Shown piece after piece: positions 10,059 through 19,150 of a DNA stretch of 64,000 bases. This DNA comes from Clostridia bacterium (GTDB taxonomy: Bacteria; Bacillota; Clostridia; Lachnospirales; Lachnospiraceae): positions 1-64,000 of the forward strand of contig SAAB01000015.1 in the NCBI GenBank assembly GCA_009929615.1, read 5' to 3'. Positions within the stretch are counted from its first letter, which is position 1, and each line of letters begins with the position of its first letter. Both the position numbers and the translations under genes were made by a program. The notes below the pieces were generated by a model. That model worked only from the letters and a program-made list of their open reading frames with translations, ran no database searches and was not told where the DNA came from.

Positions 10059-10709
10059 ATGATAGATAAACATATGGATAGGGAAGTTTACTATGAAAAT
10101 AATAATGTTCTGGACATGAAAGACTACAGACGCATGATTAATTCTATTCAAAATACACCGGAAAATAAACTGAGTAAGGTCAGCTGTATACGAAAGATTT
10201 ACTTTAATGACGAGATTAATTATCTGGAGGATGATTTGGATACATCAGCTGTGGACAAAGATGTTTACAGCATTGTAATGATTGATTTTGATACAGAGCA
10301 TCTGATGGTGGAACGAAAAAGCCGCCGTTCAGGTTTGATTTCCAAGGACTATGCACCGATTACCTTAAACGAATGTTTAAAGATATTCCGGGGAGATGTC
10401 CGTTGGCTGAAAGAGAGCATATACCCAATGCTTAATAATCTATATCTGGAGATTACCATTAATCTTAGAACCATTGGGGTGGTTGTAGATTATGAGCGCC
10501 AGCGTTTCAGAGTGAATCATACCAATGATTACATAGAGTTTGATTTGTCCGTGAAGTCCATATATGGCCGCAGGGGTGATTTGCTCTCAGATACGCTGGT
10601 TATGAAAGAACGGCTGGACTCGAAACATGTTATTATGACATATAAACAGAGTGCCAATATCCCCCCGATGTTTAAGTCCGTGTTGGCTTTGACACCGACG
10701 GCAGAATAG
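10059..10709 (+). CDS. Divergent VTC-domain (polyphosphate polymerase-like) protein
   Basis: The order of segments resembles bacterial VTC domains: an N-terminal helix pair, IRKIYFND (family IRSLYFDD), MVERKSRRSGLISKDYAPIT (family E-K-K then K-x-R), DYERQRFR (family YxRxAY), and a C-terminal acid/Lys strand VMKERLD. VTC proteins make polyphosphate or bind triphosphates in a tunnel fold. Here the usual RITxD strand reads YIEFDLSV, so catalytic residues may be missing and activity is uncertain. The length of 216 aa is slightly short for the family. ATG 10059 or ATG 10074 could be the start; neither has an ideal ribosome site. It stands alone. Confidence 0.5.
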   Translation: MIDKHMDREVYYENNNVLDMKDYRRMINSIQNTPENKLSKVSCIRKIYFNDEINYLEDDLDTSAVDKDVYSIVMIDFDTEHLMVERKSRRSGLISKDYAPITLNECLKIFRGDVRWLKESIYPMLNNLYLEITINLRTIGVVVDYERQRFRVNHTNDYIEFDLSVKSIYGRRGDLLSDTLVMKERLDSKHVIMTYKQSANIPPMFKSVLALTPTAE

Positions 10710-10771: not shown

Positions 10772-11869
10772 TTATCCGAGTAATTCCCGGATGACTTCTA
10801 TAAGCTCATTATTCTTTTCCGGCATCATGATGCAGAAACGGAAATATTTGTTATTAAGGAATGGAAAATCCGAGCAGTCTCGAATCATAAGTTTCTTCTG
10901 TATAGCTGATTCAAATACATTCTTGGCGGTTACATCATCCTTTAAAATCTTTAGGAGAATGAAATTGGCCTGAGGTTTATAATAGGTAAGACCGCTGAAG
11001 GTATCAAGTTCCCTACAGATACGTTCCCGTTCGGAAGAAATAAGCTCTCGGGTCTGGGCAATATAATCTGTGTCTGTAAACATGATCTCTCCGGCAATGG
11101 CGGCAAGCGTATTAATTGTCCATGGGTCCTGACGGCTGACAACATTTTTCACCAGGTCGCGGTTGCCGCAGATGGCATAGCCGAGACGAAGACCGGGGGC
11201 AGCAAAAAATTTGGAAATGCCTCTCAGTATAATGATGTTATTATAATACTGGGCCAATGGAATCGCAGTGACATCCTGAATCTTATCAGCAAATTCTACA
11301 TAGGTTTCATCCACGAGAACATAGATGCCATATTCTTTACATATATCCAGAATCCGACGCATATCTGCCAGGGAAATAGCAGTGGATGTCGGGTTGTTTG
11401 GGTTGCACATAATCAACAGGTCGATGTTCTGCTTTAACTGTTCCGTCATTAAATCTACATGCACGGAAAAACCGTTGCTTTCATCCAATCGATAGTAGCG
11501 GGAGGTGCCACCGGTCAGGGTGACTTCCCGTTCATATTCCGAATAGGAAGGACCGAGAATTAATGCTTTTTGGGGATTCAGGATCTTAATAAACAGGGAA
11601 ATCAGTTCAGTCGAACCATTTCCTACGATAATATTTTTAAAATCGGCATTCACATAGGAGCCGATACATTTTCTAAGAGAAGTATATTCCCGCTCCGGAT
11701 AGCCTGTGATGTCATCGATGTGCTCTGCCAGAGTTGCGCGGAGTTTTGGTGAAATACCAATAGGATTTACATTGGCTGCAAAACTGGTAATTTCATCCTT
11801 TGGTATATGGTAAATTTCCTCAATTTTCTCAAGGTCGCTGCCGTGAAAATGCTCGGATTTTTCTGTCAT
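10772..11869 (-). CDS. HisC/CobD-like PLP aminotransferase
   Basis: A class I/II fold PLP enzyme of about 365 aa. The N-terminal HGSDLEKI and FAANVNPIGIS match histidinol-phosphate aminotransferase and threonine-phosphate decarboxylase (CobD) proteins. The PLP-binding segments are CNPNNPTS, the Asp in VLVDETYVEF, and the Schiff-base Lys in ILRGISKFFAAPGLRLGY. Two in-frame ATGs exist; AAGGAG at 11878-11883 is 8 bases from ATG 11869 but only 2 from ATG 11875, so 11869 is chosen. No his or cob genes are nearby, so the substrate is open. Confidence 0.82.
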   Translation of the reverse strand: MTEKSEHFHGSDLEKIEEIYHIPKDEITSFAANVNPIGISPKLRATLAEHIDDITGYPEREYTSLRKCIGSYVNADFKNIIVGNGSTELISLFIKILNPQKALILGPSYSEYEREVTLTGGTSRYYRLDESNGFSVHVDLMTEQLKQNIDLLIMCNPNNPTSTAISLADMRRILDICKEYGIYVLVDETYVEFADKIQDVTAIPLAQYYNNIIILRGISKFFAAPGLRLGYAICGNRDLVKNVVSRQDPWTINTLAAIAGEIMFTDTDYIAQTRELISSERERICRELDTFSGLTYYKPQANFILLKILKDDVTAKNVFESAIQKKLMIRDCSDFPFLNNKYFRFCIMMPEKNNELIEVIRELLG

Positions 11870-11895
11870 AATCATTACTCCTTCTATTCTTTTTG

Positions 11896-11925
11896 TTGCG
11901 TCAGTATTCCCTCTAGTGGTATAAT
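11896..11925 (+). promoter_or_regulatory. Sigma-A-type promoter for the DUF5717-DUF5716 genes
   Basis: TTGCGT (11896-11901), an 18-base spacer and a perfect TATAAT (11920-11925). It lies in the divergent region with the aminotransferase gene. Confidence 0.6.
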
Positions 11926-11977: not shown

Positions 11978-14900
11978 TTGAAAGAAAAGATTAATTTATT
12001 ATCAAAAGGAATATTTGAATATGGCTGTCCGGATATACATGTGTCGGAGCAGAATCTTTATCTTGAAGTTGAAGCTGGCAGCAGTTACAGCGGCGAATTT
12101 CATGTGTATTCAACCAATGGAATTGATGTCAGGGCTAAAATCTTTTCTTCAAATAAACAGATGAGTTGTTCAGAAACGGATATTATCGGAACAGATAATA
12201 GCATCCATTTTACATTTCTGACGGGGAACATGGAGCCGGGAGACCAGGCGGAAGGCAATATCAGTATTATTAGTAATGGCGGTGAATTGCAGATACCTTA
12301 TAAGGTTACGGTGCGTTCACCTTATTGTATGACCAGTATTGGCGAAGTAGGTAATCTTGAGGATTTTGCCAAGCTTGCGTCAGAACATTGGCAGGAGGCT
12401 ATAGGCTTATTCAGGTCCGAGGATTTTCCACGCGTTTTTTTGGTGAACAAGATTCATGCACATACCTATGAGAAGCTTTTGAAGAGCCGGAATGTAAATC
12501 AGGCGATGGAAGAATTCCTTTATACCCTGAAGCAGAAACAGAAGCTTACCTTATCCGTGACCCAGAGGGAGATTGTTCAGAATAATCTGACCGAAGCCCT
12601 CAGTGACAAACTGGTTTTGGAGAAGAATACATGGGGCTATCAGGAGATATTGATTCGTGGGGAAGGGGACTTTTTAAGCGTTTATAAGAAACGCCTGACA
12701 ACCCAGGATTTCCTCGGAAGCTATTATGAGTTGGAATACTTTATTAATCCTGAGTTTTTAAACAAGGGATATAATTATGGCAAGATTATACTGTCCACCT
12801 TTTCCCAGACCATTGAGATTAAGGTGAGCTGTCATCAGGAGGTTTTCAGAGATGAAGAACCACGGCAGTCTATTCGAACAAGTTTATATAATATTGGAAG
12901 AAACTATCTGGAATGGCGGGCCGGCCGTATGGACGACTATGCCTGGACCAGAGAAACCAGAGAAGATGTGGATTGTTGCAGGAATAACAGCGACGATGTT
13001 CGATATGCTCTGTTAGAGGCACATTTTCTGATGACTGCTGGCGATGAGAATGGTGCCAAAGATATTATTGGAGCTATTAATGGCAGGGAATTGCGGAAGA
13101 ATTCTTTGATAGAATACTGTTATTTCATGTACATTACAGCCCTTTACCGCAAGGATGCGGACTACACCCATTATGTTGTAAGCCGTATGTGGGAATTCTA
13201 TGAAGGTCAGTGTGACCGCTGGGAGATTTTATGGATGCTGATTCAGCTGGATGAGCGTCTTATTGATGGAGGTATTCATACATTTAAACGGATTAAAGCC
13301 GAGTTTGAGAAGGGCTGTTCCAGTCCGCTGATGTACTATGAAGCATTGCGGCTGGCTAATGAAGAACCTTCGATGATACGGGAACTGGAAGGCTTTGAGA
13401 TTCAGCTTTTGAATTGGGGAACGCGCCATGATTGCCTGGAAGTATCTTTGGTCTATCAGTTTGCAGATTTGGCACAGAGAGAAAAGACCTATCATCCGTT
13501 GCTTTTATCCGCTATGGAGAAATTATGCGAGAAGCATGAGAATAAAGAACTTCTGGCAGCAGTATGCAGTATGCTCATTAAAGGGCACAAGACAGAAAAG
13601 CCTTATAATCCATGGTATTATAAAGGCATACAGCAGTCTTTGAAACTGACCCGTTTATATGAGTATTATATGCTTTCACTGGACGAAGAGAAGGTGAAGG
13701 AACTTCCGACGGCTGTGTTGTATTATTTTAATTATAATAATCAGCTGGACTGGTCCCGAAAAGCCTTTTTATATCGTTATATTGTAAGCCATCAGCAGAA
13801 TATTGAAAAGATTTATTATTCTTATGATAATATTATAAAAGCCTTTACCTATGAACAACTGGGGCTGGGAAACATTGATATGAATCTGGCTTATCTCTAT
13901 AAGTATTATATTACCAAGGATAAGATGAACAGTAAGCTGGCAGATGAACTGCCGGATATTATGTTTAAATATCAGATTAACTGTAAACATCAGGGGATTG
14001 TCAGCGTGATTGTCACTATGCGTGAGGTGGACCGGGAATTTGTCTATCCGGTTGTGGGTGGCAAGGCCTATGTGGATATTTTCATGGATGAATATAATAT
14101 TACCTTTGAAGATTCTGAGGGTAATCGTTATATAAGAACTGTGGATTATACGATGAATAAACTGATGGATGAATCTGAGTTTATCAAGGAATGTTATGAA
14201 CTGAATCCGGATAATGCAAGAGTTCTGATGAATCGAAGTGAGAGAGCTTTGAAGTATCAGATGATTGATGACACATCCATTGAGATTTTTAAAAGAACCT
14301 TGAGAATACGTTCCATACATAATGAATACAGAAAAAATATTTTAAAGAATTTAATTGATATCTACTATGAGAATTATGAAGGGGAAACTCTTGAGAAGTA
14401 TTTAATCCGCCTGGATATTCATTTGCTCGGCAGCGAAGAGCGGGGAAGCATTATTGAATATTATATTCAGCGGGGATTTTATGATAAGGCCTTTGAAGCT
14501 ATTAGTGAGTATGGCTATGAGGCTATACAGGATAAACGTCTGATGCGTCTCTGTTCCCGAATGATTCGAAAGGTGAATTATGAGGAAGACGCACTGCTTC
14601 TGGAGATTGCTTTTTATACGTTCAGAGCGGGCAAGTATGATGAAGTTATTTTGGAATATCTGAATCAATACTATATGGGAACGACCCGGGATTATATGGA
14701 TATTTGGAATGCAGCGAATGGCTTTGAAGTAGAAGCTCATCAGCTGGAGGAAAAGATGCTCTGTCAGGTGTTATTCACAGAGGACATGGTCTCGGAAAGC
14801 GGCGAAGTTTTTGATTCCTATTATAAGGTACATCCGAATATTAAGATTGTCCGGGCCTATCTGGCATACAGCGCTTACAGTTATCTTGTGAAAAACAGTA

Positions 14901-15517
14901 AGCTGAAGGAGAGTCTGTTCCAGTATATGGAGATTGAGATGGACCAGATGGAACGGGGCCGTGATGTATGCAGCCTTGCCATGTTGAAACATTTTTCGGA
15001 GAGTTATTCTGAGGACGGATCTTACAGCGAGTGGATTCGTAAAGAAGTCCGCCGTTTTATGAGCCGGGGAATTATGCTTCCATGGTTTAAGAAGTTTGTG
15101 AATTTAACAGATATTCCGGAAGAACTGGCGGCACGAACCTTTGTTACCTACACAACGAATCCCGCCCACAGAGTTAAAGTGCGGTATCGGATTGATTCAG
15201 ATACAGAAACCGGTGAATGGAAAGAAGAGAATATGCAGAACGTCTATGGCGGTATTTTTATTAAAGCATGGCCGTTATTTGCAGATGAACATCTGACATG
15301 GCAGGCACTGGATGACGATGGTGAGGATATTACTGTGACTGAAGCCAGGGAAGTCAGCCGGGATGATGAGGATAAGGATAATTTAATCAGCGGTTTAGAT
15401 TATATCAACCGTATGATTCTTCAAAAGGACTTTAATGATTATGATGCTTTTTATCGGACGGCGAATGAATACAGTCGTAGAAAAGCCATTGCAGCAGAAG
15501 TTTTTGACATACTTTAG
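11978..15517 (+). CDS. DUF5717 family protein, very large, unknown function
   Basis: The frame is open from 11807, but GGGAG at 11966-11970 sits 7 bases before TTG 11978, downstream of the promoter, giving 1179 aa. No signal peptide or membrane helix is visible. The first 150 residues look like beta-sandwich modules (YLEVEAGSSYSGEFHVYS, then a second similar stretch at 290-340). The rest is mostly helical with TPR-like periodicity, ending in a beta-rich tail. I recognise it as the Lachnospiraceae family DUF5717. The DUF5716 chaperone-fold gene follows after 27 bases, and I infer the two act together in the cytoplasm. No function is known. Confidence 0.75.
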   Translation: MKEKINLLSKGIFEYGCPDIHVSEQNLYLEVEAGSSYSGEFHVYSTNGIDVRAKIFSSNKQMSCSETDIIGTDNSIHFTFLTGNMEPGDQAEGNISIISNGGELQIPYKVTVRSPYCMTSIGEVGNLEDFAKLASEHWQEAIGLFRSEDFPRVFLVNKIHAHTYEKLLKSRNVNQAMEEFLYTLKQKQKLTLSVTQREIVQNNLTEALSDKLVLEKNTWGYQEILIRGEGDFLSVYKKRLTTQDFLGSYYELEYFINPEFLNKGYNYGKIILSTFSQTIEIKVSCHQEVFRDEEPRQSIRTSLYNIGRNYLEWRAGRMDDYAWTRETREDVDCCRNNSDDVRYALLEAHFLMTAGDENGAKDIIGAINGRELRKNSLIEYCYFMYITALYRKDADYTHYVVSRMWEFYEGQCDRWEILWMLIQLDERLIDGGIHTFKRIKAEFEKGCSSPLMYYEALRLANEEPSMIRELEGFEIQLLNWGTRHDCLEVSLVYQFADLAQREKTYHPLLLSAMEKLCEKHENKELLAAVCSMLIKGHKTEKPYNPWYYKGIQQSLKLTRLYEYYMLSLDEEKVKELPTAVLYYFNYNNQLDWSRKAFLYRYIVSHQQNIEKIYYSYDNIIKAFTYEQLGLGNIDMNLAYLYKYYITKDKMNSKLADELPDIMFKYQINCKHQGIVSVIVTMREVDREFVYPVVGGKAYVDIFMDEYNITFEDSEGNRYIRTVDYTMNKLMDESEFIKECYELNPDNARVLMNRSERALKYQMIDDTSIEIFKRTLRIRSIHNEYRKNILKNLIDIYYENYEGETLEKYLIRLDIHLLGSEERGSIIEYYIQRGFYDKAFEAISEYGYEAIQDKRLMRLCSRMIRKVNYEEDALLLEIAFYTFRAGKYDEVILEYLNQYYMGTTRDYMDIWNAANGFEVEAHQLEEKMLCQVLFTEDMVSESGEVFDSYYKVHPNIKIVRAYLAYSAYSYLVKNSKLKESLFQYMEIEMDQMERGRDVCSLAMLKHFSESYSEDGSYSEWIRKEVRRFMSRGIMLPWFKKFVNLTDIPEELAARTFVTYTTNPAHRVKVRYRIDSDTETGEWKEENMQNVYGGIFIKAWPLFADEHLTWQALDDDGEDITVTEAREVSRDDEDKDNLISGLDYINRMILQKDFNDYDAFYRTANEYSRRKAIAAEVFDIL

Positions 15518-15544
15518 ATTTAGAGAATATACGAGGAAAAGAGC

Positions 15545-17695
15545 GTGTTTATGGACAATCGAGAAAAAGAGCTGATTATCGGATATGATTTGTGCAATGA
15601 CTATATTCAGATAAGCTGCTATAACCAGAAAACACAGGATATGGATACTATCTGTTATATTGGTGAGAAGATGCTGGACCGGATTCCGGCCGTATTGTGC
15701 CGAATCTATAGTGACCGCTCCTGGGTATGTGGCTATGATGCCTGGAAAGCGGTGAACGAGAATAGGGGTATTCTTGTTTCGGATTTTGTAGAGGGAATGG
15801 ATAAGAAGAAAGAGATTGTCGTTGATGGCGATTTTTACTCCAGTGGTGAACTGACACGGATATTTGTTACTGAAAGTTTGAAGATGGTGACAAAGTATTA
15901 TCCTCACTGGCGGGTAAATCATTTGACAATAGCTGTAGAAAAGCTTGGAAAGAATACAGTGGAAGCTCTGCAGCCTCTGGAGGCATCCTTTGAAGAGGGC
16001 GAGAACCGCCTGTCTGTTGTCAATCATGTGTCTGCCTATGAACACTATACCCTGAATCAGAAAAAGGAACTGTGGCAGCATGACGTGGGCCTGTTTGACT
16101 ATTCAAAACGGGGCATGACTTACTACCATCTGAATATTTCAAAGAAAAGGGTACCGGTAGCCGTTATGGCAACAACAGTCCCACTGAATGAATTTTTCGA
16201 TGGCAGTGAGCTTGGAAAGCTGGCGCCACCGGAGATGGACCGGCGTTTCCTGGAAGTTGTACGTAAGGTAACGACAAATAAGATTATATCTACGGTTTAT
16301 TTGACAGGTAAAGGCTTTGAAGGGGATTGGGCAAAGGTTTCTCTAAAGAATCTTTGTCATCATAGAAAAGGATTTATTGGTTCCAATATATTTTCAAGGG
16401 GTGCCTGCTATTACAGTCTTATGGCAGCAGGTCTTTTGGAAAAAGGAAGCTTTATTGCCCTTAATGAGGATGTTGTTTCGAAGACATTGTATATTCGGGG
16501 AAGCAAAGACCGGGAGATGGTCAATGAAGAGATGATTAAGGCCGGACAGGTTTGGTATGATGCGGCTGCGAAGACATCCTTTATTCCGGACCAGATGGAC
16601 CATGTGACGATTCATCTGATGGACTATCTAACCCATAGAGAACGGTCGATAGCTATTTCACTGGAAGCTTTTGCGGAGGATGAAAAAAGACCGGATAAGA
16701 CAAAGCATTTAGAGATGGAATTGAGCTTTGAGGATGCAGCCCATTGTCATGTGCTGATAAAAGATTTAGGTTTTGGAGAATTTTATTCACCATCAGACAA
16801 GGTTGTAGAGCAGACTTTTGACATATATGATGAAACACTGAACGATAAAGAGGTTCATGAACCGGGCCGCTTGATTTTGGCGGAGAACCGTGTGAATATA
16901 GTGCCATTTTATTTCAGTCTCAGCGGTATTCGGATTTTTGATATACAACAGCTTTGCTATTATGTATATAACCATATTTATACAGTCAGTGAAGAAACTT
17001 TCGATGATGATTTATTCTATTGGATAGAGAAAAACCTTGGTGAAAAAGCCCTTGTGAAACGAATGAGGGAAGGGAAAAAGAATCAGAGAACATTGAAAGA
17101 GATGGTGCGCCTTCTGCTGATGGCGGTGGATTACTATTCCAAAGAAGAAGTTGCCGCATTACAGAAAACCATCGAGGATATAGAAGCACAGAACCCTGTG
17201 GAAACGAAGAAAGTAGAAGCGGATAATTATCTGCGGTATGGTCGCTCCATTGAGGCTTTGTCTTCTTATAAAAAAGTGAATCTGATGATGGAAGATTCAG
17301 AAGACAGCGTTACGAATGAATTCAGGGGAAATGTTTATCATAATATGGGCATTGCTTTTGCCAGACTGGCCAATGATGAGGCGGCTTTGGAATGTTTCAA
17401 AAAGGCCTATGATTTAAACGGTTCGGTTACTTCAAGAGACGCATGGTTAATTAGCCTGAAACTTCTTGGCAGAGATGCAGAGATGCTTGAGGAAACGGGT
17501 CATTTGATGCTGTCACCGGATGCGGTGGACCAGATGGAGAGCCGGTTGAAGGAGGCAGAGGACGCTTTCGAAAAACAGCCAGTCTATGAATTGATGAAGA
17601 AATTAAAGGATGTTCACAGTGAAAGTCAGTGGGAGAATATTTCACCGGAAGTGCTTTCATGGCTGGAAAAACAGAAAGAAGAATATCGTCATTAG
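15545..17695 (+). CDS. DUF5716 family protein: Hsp70/actin-fold ATPase-like with TPR tail
   Basis: This 716-aa protein starts with IIGYDLCNDYIQIS, which aligns in position with the phosphate-1 loop of Hsp70/actin-fold ATPases (GIDLGTTNS in DnaK). Further matches are STVYLTGKGFEGDW (phosphate-2/adenosine region) and GSNIFSRGACYYSLMA (terminal helix, GAALQA in DnaK). Residues 560-680 contain TPR-type helices (NVYHNMGIAFARLANDEAAL). Soluble. GAGG at 15533-15536 supports GTG 15545; ATG 15551 is possible. Linked to DUF5717 upstream and, 12 bases downstream, to glpP. I infer an ATP-dependent partner of DUF5717. Confidence 0.75.
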   Translation: MFMDNREKELIIGYDLCNDYIQISCYNQKTQDMDTICYIGEKMLDRIPAVLCRIYSDRSWVCGYDAWKAVNENRGILVSDFVEGMDKKKEIVVDGDFYSSGELTRIFVTESLKMVTKYYPHWRVNHLTIAVEKLGKNTVEALQPLEASFEEGENRLSVVNHVSAYEHYTLNQKKELWQHDVGLFDYSKRGMTYYHLNISKKRVPVAVMATTVPLNEFFDGSELGKLAPPEMDRRFLEVVRKVTTNKIISTVYLTGKGFEGDWAKVSLKNLCHHRKGFIGSNIFSRGACYYSLMAAGLLEKGSFIALNEDVVSKTLYIRGSKDREMVNEEMIKAGQVWYDAAAKTSFIPDQMDHVTIHLMDYLTHRERSIAISLEAFAEDEKRPDKTKHLEMELSFEDAAHCHVLIKDLGFGEFYSPSDKVVEQTFDIYDETLNDKEVHEPGRLILAENRVNIVPFYFSLSGIRIFDIQQLCYYVYNHIYTVSEETFDDDLFYWIEKNLGEKALVKRMREGKKNQRTLKEMVRLLLMAVDYYSKEEVAALQKTIEDIEAQNPVETKKVEADNYLRYGRSIEALSSYKKVNLMMEDSEDSVTNEFRGNVYHNMGIAFARLANDEAALECFKKAYDLNGSVTSRDAWLISLKLLGRDAEMLEETGHLMLSPDAVDQMESRLKEAEDAFEKQPVYELMKKLKDVHSESQWENISPEVLSWLEKQKEEYRH

Positions 17696-17707: not shown

Positions 17708-18268
17708 ATGTTTGATATAGATGTGCTGGTAGATTCACCGGTAATTGCGGCAATAAAGGATGGGCAGGGCCTTGAAGAGTGTTTAAAAACGGATTGCCAG
17801 GTTATATTTGTGTTATATGGCAATGTATGTAATATAGGAGAGATTGTCAAAACGATTAAGGATGGTCATAAGATGGCCATTGTCCATATGGATTTAATAA
17901 CGGGCTTGAGTTCAAAAGAGGTTTCTGTAGACTTTATTAAACAAAGTACCCATGCGGATGGCATTATCAGCACCAAACCGATGATGGTCAAACGTGCCAA
18001 AGAATTAGGGCTTCTGGCAATTCAGAGATTTTTTATGATTGATTCCATTGCTTTGCAGAATGCAAAACGTCAGATTGAGATTTATCATCCAGACTGTGTG
18101 GAGATTATGCCAGGGGTAATGCCAAAGATTTTGAAAGAGATTCGTGATTTTGTCAATGTTCCGGTAATTGCCGGTGGATTGATTACGGATAAAAAAGATG
18201 TTATGAGTGCCCTGTCATCAGGGGCAGATGCGATTTCTACAACAAATAGAGCTTTGTGGAGCATATAA
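17708..18268 (+). CDS. glpP: Glycerol uptake operon antiterminator
   Basis: A TIM-barrel RNA-binding regulator of 186 aa. Family signatures include DSPVIAAIKD near the start, HMDLITGLSSKE, ADGIISTKP, QRFFMIDS, CVEIMPGVMPK and PVIAGGLI. In Bacillus, GlpP bound to glycerol-3-phosphate lets RNA polymerase read through a terminator in the glpD leader. The glycerol-phosphate genes follow directly, behind a new promoter and a terminator hairpin (18357-18406). AAGGAG precedes ATG 17708. Confidence 0.9.
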   Translation: MFDIDVLVDSPVIAAIKDGQGLEECLKTDCQVIFVLYGNVCNIGEIVKTIKDGHKMAIVHMDLITGLSSKEVSVDFIKQSTHADGIISTKPMMVKRAKELGLLAIQRFFMIDSIALQNAKRQIEIYHPDCVEIMPGVMPKILKEIRDFVNVPVIAGGLITDKKDVMSALSSGADAISTTNRALWSI

Positions 18269-18287
18269 AAAATACAAATTTATACCA

Positions 18288-18316
18288 TTGCAATTATGGG
18301 GTGTGCGTGTTATGAT
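18288..18316 (+). promoter_or_regulatory. Promoter of the glycerol-phosphate operon
   Basis: TTGCAA (18288-18293), a 17-base spacer ending in TGT (extended -10) and TATGAT (18311-18316). Transcription would start near 18323, 34 bases before the leader hairpin. Confidence 0.7.
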
Positions 18317-18356
18317 GAATATAAGTATGAATATGTACGCTTTAGAGAATGAGAGA

Positions 18357-18406
18357 GGCGAAATAGGTAGTTCGAAGGGACTATCTGTTTCGCCTTATCT
18401 TTTTTA
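18357..18406 (+). promoter_or_regulatory. Leader terminator, likely GlpP antitermination target
   Basis: GGCGAAATAGGTAGTTC and GGACTATCTGTTTCGCC form a 17-bp stem with a GAAG-type loop, followed by TTATCTTTTTT. It lies between the promoter at 18288 and the first structural gene, whose ribosome site follows. The position immediately downstream of glpP fits the Bacillus glpD leader arrangement. RNA binding by GlpP is inferred. Confidence 0.75.
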
Positions 18407-18424
18407 GAGAATGGGGGAGTCAAA

Positions 18425-19150
18425 ATGACAAAGAATTTGGCACACAGGGGTTTTAGCGGTAAGTATCCGGAAAACACCATACTGGCCTTCCAAAAGGCTA
18501 TTGAGGCTGGTGCGGATGGTATTGAACATGATGTTCATTACACCAAAGATGGCGTTCTTGTTGTCATTCACGATGAACGTGTTGACAGAACAACAGATGC
18601 CACAGGGTATGTAAGAGATTTTACATACGAAGAATTGTCAAAGCTGGACGCTTCTTATAAGTTTAAAGAGTTCGGTGTACAGCGTATTCCAACACTTAGA
18701 GAGTATATGGAGCTGGTAAAGGACAAGGATATTATTACCAACATCGAATTAAAGACGGGGGTTTTTGAATATCCGGGAATTGAAAAGATGGTCTGTGATA
18801 TGATTCATGAGTATGATATCAAGGACAGAATCATTATTTCTTCCTTTAATCATTACTCTGTTCTGAGGATGAAAGCATTGGACCCGACGATGAAGTGTGG
18901 TCTTCTGGAAGAATCCTGGCTGCTTAATGCGGGGGCTTATGTAGCTGCTTCAGGTGTGGAATGTTATCATCCAATGTATAAAAACATGACTCCGGAGATT
19001 GTGACTGAGATTAAATCCCATGGTTTGGAAATCAATACATGGACAGTCAACGAAGCAGATGAAATCCGTGAAATGTTTGAGCGGGGTGTTGACTCTGTTA
19101 TCAGCAATTATCCGGATGTAGTAAATCAGGTAAAGAAAGCTTTTAAATAA
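18425..19150 (+). CDS. Glycerophosphodiester phosphodiesterase
   Basis: This 241-aa GDPD-family enzyme has a catalytic N-terminal segment LAHRGFSGKYPENT, then GADGIEHDVHYTKDG with the metal-binding Glu and Asp, and VVIHDERVDRTT. The later NIELKTG and INTWTVNEADEI complete the TIM-barrel signature. It has no signal peptide, so acts in the cytoplasm, releasing glycerol-3-phosphate from deacylated phospholipids. GGGGGAG precedes ATG 18425. First gene after the GlpP-type leader; the product feeds the dehydrogenase genes downstream. Confidence 0.92.
   Translation: MTKNLAHRGFSGKYPENTILAFQKAIEAGADGIEHDVHYTKDGVLVVIHDERVDRTTDATGYVRDFTYEELSKLDASYKFKEFGVQRIPTLREYMELVKDKDIITNIELKTGVFEYPGIEKMVCDMIHEYDIKDRIIISSFNHYSVLRMKALDPTMKCGLLEESWLLNAGAYVAASGVECYHPMYKNMTPEIVTEIKSHGLEINTWTVNEADEIREMFERGVDSVISNYPDVVNQVKKAFK

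Follow-up and report, generated by a model that had tools for sequence, protein, structure and literature searches.

Two described systems come closest to the gene pair analysed here. In the passages of PMC7083937 and PMC8476630 that treat it, Ssz1 binds ATP without hydrolysing it and helps another Hsp70, and GAP1-N2 neighbourhoods, as set out in the relevant part of an eLife 2020 paper (PMC7159879), combine two HSP70s and a GrpE with an FNIII protein that carries a TPR or DnaJ fusion. The pair in question encodes a DUF5717 and a DUF5716 protein and lies in a stretch of 64,000 nucleotides (nt) from a Clostridia bacterium (contig SAAB01000015.1 of assembly GCA_009929615.1), which is called the window throughout. 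Both proteins are members of Pfam families, DUF5717 (PF18983/PF18984) and DUF5716_C (PF18980), and exceed the curated cut-offs (931.8, 280.2 and 266.2 bits), with the DUF5717_N and DUF5717 models spanning the whole length of the first protein and PF18980 covering residues 126-426 only of the second; Pfam gives no function for these families, and among open-licence PubMed Central (PMC) papers DUF5716 is named once, incidentally, in an unrelated paper, and DUF5717 in none. A reading made from the letters alone (the sequence-only reading) had proposed that the two form an ATP-driven two-protein machine restricted mainly to Lachnospiraceae, which, following that label, we take to be the window's family. 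Our comparison points to a different origin: the pair would be what is left of a larger operon with several Hsp70s, and its Hsp70-like member is unlikely to hydrolyse ATP.

Neighbourhoods were compared at 20 loci from 20 genomes, one of which (G102) belongs to the window's own family (f1; f4, f5, f8 and f22 denote other families, and L numbers denote loci), and at 20 further loci, 19 from the own family and one from f8. In other families of the order the two genes lie in an operon of seven parts in the order DUF5717, Hsp70-A, GrpE-fusion, DUF5716, Hsp70-B, Hsp70-VWA and TPR, where DUF5717 occupies one open reading frame (ORF) or two and the GrpE-fusion protein, mostly 560-650 amino acids (aa) long, carries its GrpE domain at the C-terminus. 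At L080, Pfam gives HSP70 (E 5.1e-76), GrpE (3e-13) and DUF5716 with HSP70 (1.5e-26, 1.4e-17), followed in the later genes by HSP70 (7.4e-63), HSP70 with VWA (4.5e-96, 1.9e-10) and TPR; PF18980 also matches Hsp70-B of this locus in the same region, and none of the eight L080 genes searched has a DnaJ, GAP1, GTPase or FNIII match at E 1. The seven-part order was unbroken in all 37 non-f1 loci scored, the full run being present in 14 of 19 loci (L061-L080 without L073) and 8 of 18 (L104-L121), and many loci without it reach a contig end or have the operon split into blocks. The named carriers among the 18 best loci are metagenome-assembled genomes labelled Defluviitaleaceae, Eubacteriaceae, Clostridiales and Clostridia. 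At five loci labelled Defluviitaleaceae or belonging to f5 (L107, L110, L120, L071 and L078) the operon is broken up into blocks that lie apart among unrelated genes, HspA-GrpEx-DUF5716 being one such block; L071 and L078 each represent one block and are included in the 19. In open-licence PMC papers we found no description of an operon that joins three Hsp70s and a GrpE fusion, and in a 2024 paper on DnaK duplication (PMC11019930) the terms VWA and Lachnospir are absent from the main text.

The layout in the window's family is DUF5717, DUF5716 (377-450 aa) and a TPR protein (260-301 aa), with DUF5717-DUF5716 gaps of -4 to 31 nt. At least two GrpE matches were found in 19 of 19 non-f1 genomes, one in 19 of 22 f1 genomes and two in the other 3 of 22. 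In the window's own genome we found a single DnaK-type Hsp70 and a single GrpE, together with a frame of 338 aa that has a partial HSP70 match and that we take to be MreB. The sequence-only reading had also stated that the pair occurs without grpE or dnaJ: this stands for the window, where neither was found beside the pair (ORF lists, and Pfam on the neighbours at 10059-10709 and 17708-18268), and misleads as a general picture, in that the sister-family operon has a GrpE-domain protein and three intact Hsp70s.

Descent of the pair from this operon was examined with hidden Markov models (HMMs) built from large-operon loci only. The window DUF5716 scores 144.7 bits on the large-operon DUF5716 HMM versus 24.0 on that of Hsp70-B, and the other f1 and f8 proteins score 48.5-174.5 versus at most 44.3 bits; profile-profile comparison by hhalign gave E 3.5e-55 for DUF5716 and E 3.9e-28 for TPR. 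Because window residues 441-715 match stand-alone TPR proteins (E 3.1e-59 to the f1 HMM, E 2.6e-31 to the large-operon HMM), we read the 716-aa window protein as DUF5716 fused to the operon's TPR protein, which bears out the TPR repeats proposed earlier; single Pfam TPR models stay below cut-off, with weak matches at 588-625, and a second frame of fused size (G920, 713 aa) is among the matches listed. In a tree of 38 DUF5716 and 8 of the 18 Hsp70-B rows, the f1 proteins form one clade (support 99) with the f8 row within, which joins f4 (99) and f22 (96) inside the large-operon DUF5716. The window's family thus nests within large-operon sequences, and the operon of its sister families holds a GrpE-domain protein and three intact Hsp70s; both argue for a reduction rather than an engine complete in two parts. 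Most simply, the form with two or three genes would have arisen when the large operon lost its three active Hsp70s and the GrpE fusion, an origin in which our confidence is high; scaffold, pseudo-Hsp70 and TPR would then be the parts surviving in the window's family.

In case of DUF5716, the Hsp70/actin fold claimed by the sequence-only reading was recovered. With the model of residues 1-442 (predicted local distance difference test, pLDDT, 66.8; predicted template modelling score, pTM, 0.52) Foldseek places DnaK first (2v7y, E 1.4e-16), VIA finds Hsc70 (2qwo, Z 20.0, 282 residues, 3.9 A) and Ssz1 (4gni, Z 19.4), and the best 50 structural rows are all Hsp70-type chains; the DnaK alignments reach residues 428-442, with high root-mean-square deviation across the two domains. 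The Hsp70 actin-type nucleotide-binding fold is confirmed at the level of this model, and the pair reading is not refuted on this count. The ATPase landmarks attributed to the protein had to be given up: at the columns of Lys71, Glu175 and Thr204 (presumably Hsc70 numbering, as for Thr13) the window protein has V, H and G, Thr13 and the phosphate-2 glycines are also lost, and most such losses recur in nearly all family orthologues. Lys71 is kept in none of the 36 readable DUF5716 rows, Thr204 in 1 of 38, and Glu175 in 3 of the 17 large-operon rows and in none of the 21 from f1, f8 and the window; by these counts, degeneration started in the large operon and advanced further in the window's family. 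The catalytic columns are kept in all readable rows of Hsp70-A (17), Hsp70-B (18) and Hsp70-VWA (15 or 16), so that within the large operon DUF5716 alone is degenerate and three Hsp70s have intact motifs; the motif table and the tree do not include the DUF5716 of L089, and a short HVWA fragment (L062) was dropped. A search with PF00012 gave no match to the window DUF5716 at E 1, while the L080 orthologue matches at 1.4e-17. Since the Hsp70 catalytic residues are lost, the description as ATP-driven is unsupported for DUF5716, in which hydrolysis is unlikely.

The beta-sandwich part proposed for DUF5717 was found at residues 19-290. By VIA, residues 19-114 match PapD-type chaperones, MSP, HYDIN and CEP192 ASH domains with Z scores of 11-12 and, in most rows, about 92 residues superposed at 1.8-2.2 A, and the second sandwich matches the GH115 enzyme 4zmh (Z 12.0, 101 residues, 2.8 A); the Foldseek top rows for the N-terminal model are ciliary central-pair proteins. 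This PapD/MSP/ASH-like resemblance of the model is one of fold and says nothing of function. Beyond the sandwiches the protein is presumed to consist of helical repeats, TPR_19 matching the L080 orthologue weakly (E 0.059).

The genes are tightly coupled (27 nt apart on the same strand in the window) and strongly co-occur. Among 200 genomes of 200 genera in the window's family, counted as profile matches per genome with the individual hits listed in part and without a hit-by-hit check, 193 have both genes, 3 DUF5717 only, 2 DUF5716 only and 2 neither; four of the five one-sided genomes are only 67-70% complete and the fifth (G951) is 99% complete, and nearly all genomes carry one copy. Among 196 genomes of the order, PF18980 was found in 89 and PF18984 in 94, with both in 87, DUF5717 only in 7, DUF5716 only in 2 and neither in 100 (both in 87 of the 96 with either), a count that mixes DUF5716 with Hsp70-B, which is what PF18980 matches in some f22 genomes. 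Separate occurrence, frequent instances of which would speak against a pair, is rare (5 of 200 family and 9 of 196 order genomes). Wider draws gave matches in 5 of 398 phylum and 11 of 291 class genomes, all from the window's own family except one weak match (E 8e-5). The proposed restriction mainly to Lachnospiraceae is right in that both genes are near-universal in the window's family and too narrow in that they are present in many other families of the order. Sequence identity within the window's family is 22-29%, indicating fast divergence.

With about even confidence we propose that the pair represents the core to which an ancestral multi-Hsp70 operon was reduced, made up of a scaffold, a non-hydrolysing pseudo-Hsp70 and a TPR recruiter; for the mechanism itself our confidence is moderate to low. 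DUF5717 would act as a scaffold in the cytosol, its beta-sandwiches and repeats gripping a client or the tail of another protein. DUF5716 may bind ATP without hydrolysing it, its part resembling the beta-subdomain of the substrate-binding domain (SBD-beta) would offer a constitutive, low-turnover client site, and the TPR part would recruit a partner. In sister families, the three Hsp70s and the built-in GrpE exchange factor would perform the ATP-driven steps; because these are gone in the window's family, client release there would be passive and ATP-independent, or powered by housekeeping DnaK and GrpE, much as yeast Ssb is helped by Ssz1. More broadly, and only tentatively, with confidence a little short of even, we suggest an undescribed cytosolic multi-Hsp70 machine in one Clostridia order, comprising three active Hsp70s (one with VWA), a pseudo-Hsp70, a large subunit that includes GrpE, a TPR subunit and a scaffold of PapD/ASH domains plus repeats, that was stripped in the window's family to a near-core remnant working without its own ATPase: a machine outliving its motor. 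An origin would thereby be given to two genes that are near-core throughout a bacterial family, and the operon link predicts the lack of ATPase activity, a DUF5717-DUF5716 complex and a possible dependence on housekeeping DnaK; if true, bacteria would here offer a case of an Hsp70 that is catalytically dead and was retained while its active partners were lost.

Several points weigh against this account. Of 38 DUF5716 rows, 36 retain the phosphate-1 Asp and 33 the phosphate-2 Asp, so nucleotide binding, even weak hydrolysis, may survive. The DUF5716 model is mediocre, with much of residues 165-220 below pLDDT 50, and the underlying 15-row alignment has rows at 15-22% identity; the losses at lobe II positions consequently rest on a difficult alignment. 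One DUF5716 alignment omits L118, a divergent row among 15. The tree came from a quick search with Shimodaira-Hasegawa-like approximate likelihood-ratio support (SH-aLRT) only, and the f1 branches are long. That the pair borrows housekeeping DnaK is pure inference, and that its function stayed unchanged after loss of the ATPase partners is assumed. A separate hint concerns location: a membrane coiled-coil gene lies 3' of the pair in 16 of 21 f1 loci, and such a gene follows at 5 of the 19 in the large-operon set, which may point to a site close to the envelope; the window lacks this gene nearby, and its own genome gave no match.

These observations also bear on other explanations of the pair. 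A dedicated chaperone in which DUF5716, as an active Hsp70-type ATPase, powers DUF5717 would fit the Hsp70 nucleotide-binding fold, the retained aspartates and the nearly constant company of the two genes; we hold it to be improbable, given the lost residues described above, the missing PF00012 match and the fact that the intact sites sit on the other Hsp70s of the large operon. Equally improbable, in our judgement, is an actin-like assembly with DUF5716 as filament or ring component, DUF5717 and TPR as scaffold, and the large operon as a mixed Hsp70/actin-fold polymer: the actin-type fold, the several adjacent actin-fold paralogues at L080, the likeness of the PapD/ASH-like domains to those of ciliary scaffold proteins and the membrane coiled-coil neighbour would all agree with it, yet the nearest structures are Hsp70s, SBD-beta-like part included, and the best 50 rows contain no MreB or ParM, which does not exclude either.

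A narrower form of the reduced-core reading makes the pair a housekeeping factor that assembles one particular abundant complex or envelope structure of the family, with the client rather than general folding being conserved, and we regard it as a serious possibility towards which we nevertheless do not lean. Carriage by 193 of 200 genera, mostly in one copy, and the membrane-anchored coiled-coil neighbour speak for such a role; none of the neighbouring genes that might encode a client is present at every locus, however, the window genome gave no match to the coiled-coil neighbour at E 0.01, and the fast sequence divergence is at odds with it. The same carriage, near-universal and not patchy, argues against a GTPase-centred system for conflict or defence, of the GAP1-N2 type with HSP70 and GrpE, that was reduced in the window's family; this view takes its appeal from the similar parts list in the published portion consulted (PMC7159879) and is very improbable, the L080 search having given none of GAP1, GTPase, FNIII or DnaJ and the window proteins having no PADLOC match. 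The favoured reading is the reduced core of a multi-Hsp70 operon. The coordinates of the pair, its parts and its surroundings are given in Table 1.

Table 1. Features of the DUF5717/DUF5716 locus and its flanks (window coordinates).
Feature	Position	Strand	Basis or remark
Aminotransferase, divergent from the pair	10772..11875	-	blastp cluster; Aminotran_1_2 for the L080 copy
Promoter-like site TTGCGT-18-TATAAT, 5' of DUF5717	11896..11925	+	putative; read by eye
DUF5717 protein, 1179 aa, TTG start	11978..15517	+	PF18984 1-868 E 4.4e-280, PF18983 871-1176 E 2.6e-83 (Pfam)
First beta-sandwich of DUF5717, residues 19-114, PapD/MSP/ASH-like	12032..12319	+	AlphaFold2 (AF2) model of residues 1-324, pLDDT 81.8
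Five-helix linker domain of DUF5717, ~residues 125-185	12350..12532	+	model secondary structure
Second beta-sandwich of DUF5717, ~residues 190-290	12545..12847	+	model; VIA
Rest of DUF5717, presumed helical repeats and C-terminal domain PF18983	12848..15517	+	inference
DUF5716-TPR fusion protein, 716 aa, GTG start	15545..17695	+	PF18980 126-426 E 3.8e-79 (Pfam)
Pseudo-Hsp70 nucleotide-binding domain, ~residues 8-300; retains phosphate-1 Asp15 but not the catalytic residues	15566..16444	+	model, Foldseek, VIA, motif table
SBD-beta-like part, ~residues 310-430, conserved DLGFGE motif	16472..16834	+	model strands; motif in family alignment
TPR part, residues 441-715; separate gene in other f1 loci and the large operon	16865..17689	+	HMM matches
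glpP-type antiterminator gene	17708..18268	+	12 nt 3' of DUF5716-TPR; PF04309 E 1.7e-69
Terminator-like hairpin and T-run, 19 pairs, end of unit	18355..18396	+	hairpin scan

The promoter-like site is absent from the output of a consensus promoter scan that requires 4 of 6 matches per hexamer. The divergent aminotransferase is a neighbour at 8 of the 19 large-operon loci and at 6 of the 21 from f1, and we treat it as a synteny marker outside the system. To judge by the layout, the glpP-type gene is probably in one transcript with the pair; it was rejected as a component of the system, having no counterpart in the 40 other loci clustered, so that the window alone has it among the loci read. Together with the strong hairpin and T-run and a following glycerophosphodiester phosphodiesterase gene it makes up, at 17708-18425, a candidate GlpP-controlled attenuator. 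On the other side, a 216-aa ORF at 10059-10709 has no Pfam or NCBIfam match at E 1. The membrane coiled-coil gene was likewise rejected as an obligatory subunit, being missing at 5 of 21 f1 loci including the window and without a match in the window's own genome at E 0.01, in a search made without a positive control. Five of the 19 large-operon loci (L064, L065, L070, L076 and L077) have a 354-466 aa protein 5' of DUF5717, with membrane helices and a coiled coil by eye, which hhalign found unrelated to the downstream coiled-coil gene.

Searches beyond the related genomes returned little. NCBIfam gave no match above cut-off to either pair protein, a PDB sequence search no convincing relative (matches such as globins were taken for chance), and PLSDB plasmids and PHROGs no match; in PADLOC two Hsp70s and the TPR protein of L080 match weakly. 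Viral contigs yielded no relative when searched with two family alignment profiles or with DUF5717 of the window by itself. DUF5717 at 26-29% identity is present on 'Bacteriophage sp.' scaffolds, unverified and from human faeces (four records, among them L184 = MT835486.1, 5332-8871), which are probably bacterial DNA in virome assemblies. In Anaerovibrio lipolyticus (NZ_JADYTY010000001.1, L160:1555-17594) an Hsp70, a degenerate Hsp70 and an Hsp70-VWA adjoin a baseplate-hub/VgrG-like gene and a DUF4280 gene; this is a second setting in which Hsp70-VWA accompanies a degenerate Hsp70, and it may be linked to a contractile injection apparatus.

Set against the known systems, the locus resembles DnaK-DnaJ-GrpE in the Hsp70 fold and, for the large operon, in combining Hsp70s with a GrpE domain; it differs in that no DnaJ was found among the L080 genes searched, GrpE is the C-terminal part of a larger protein and the Hsp70 retained in the window is catalytically degenerate. 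The GAP1-N2 theme of HSP70 and GrpE is the nearest parts list in the published sections consulted: HSP70, GrpE, an extra HSP70 and a beta-sandwich-plus-TPR-type protein occur together in the large operon as they do there, and not in the window, whereas the large operon shows no GTPase or GAP1 match (at L080), has a fixed order and a VWA-fused Hsp70, and is represented near-core in the window's family. With Ssz1/Zuo1, the ribosome-associated complex, DUF5716 as judged from sequence and model shares an Hsp70 nucleotide-binding domain and may share an SBD-beta without the usual lid, and Ssz1 does not hydrolyse ATP (parts of PMC7083937 and PMC8476630); in both cases a partner protein is present and a housekeeping Hsp70 is available in the cell. 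Ssz1/Zuo1 is eukaryotic, Ssz1 keeps ATP binding, and the pair is not known to be linked to the ribosome. The partner of Ssz1 has a J-domain, which DUF5717 does not show (Pfam gives DUF5717 models only), and because of this the pair is not a member of the Ssz1/Zuo1 system; as a working parallel, Ssz1 offers a likeness in mode of action rather than in membership.

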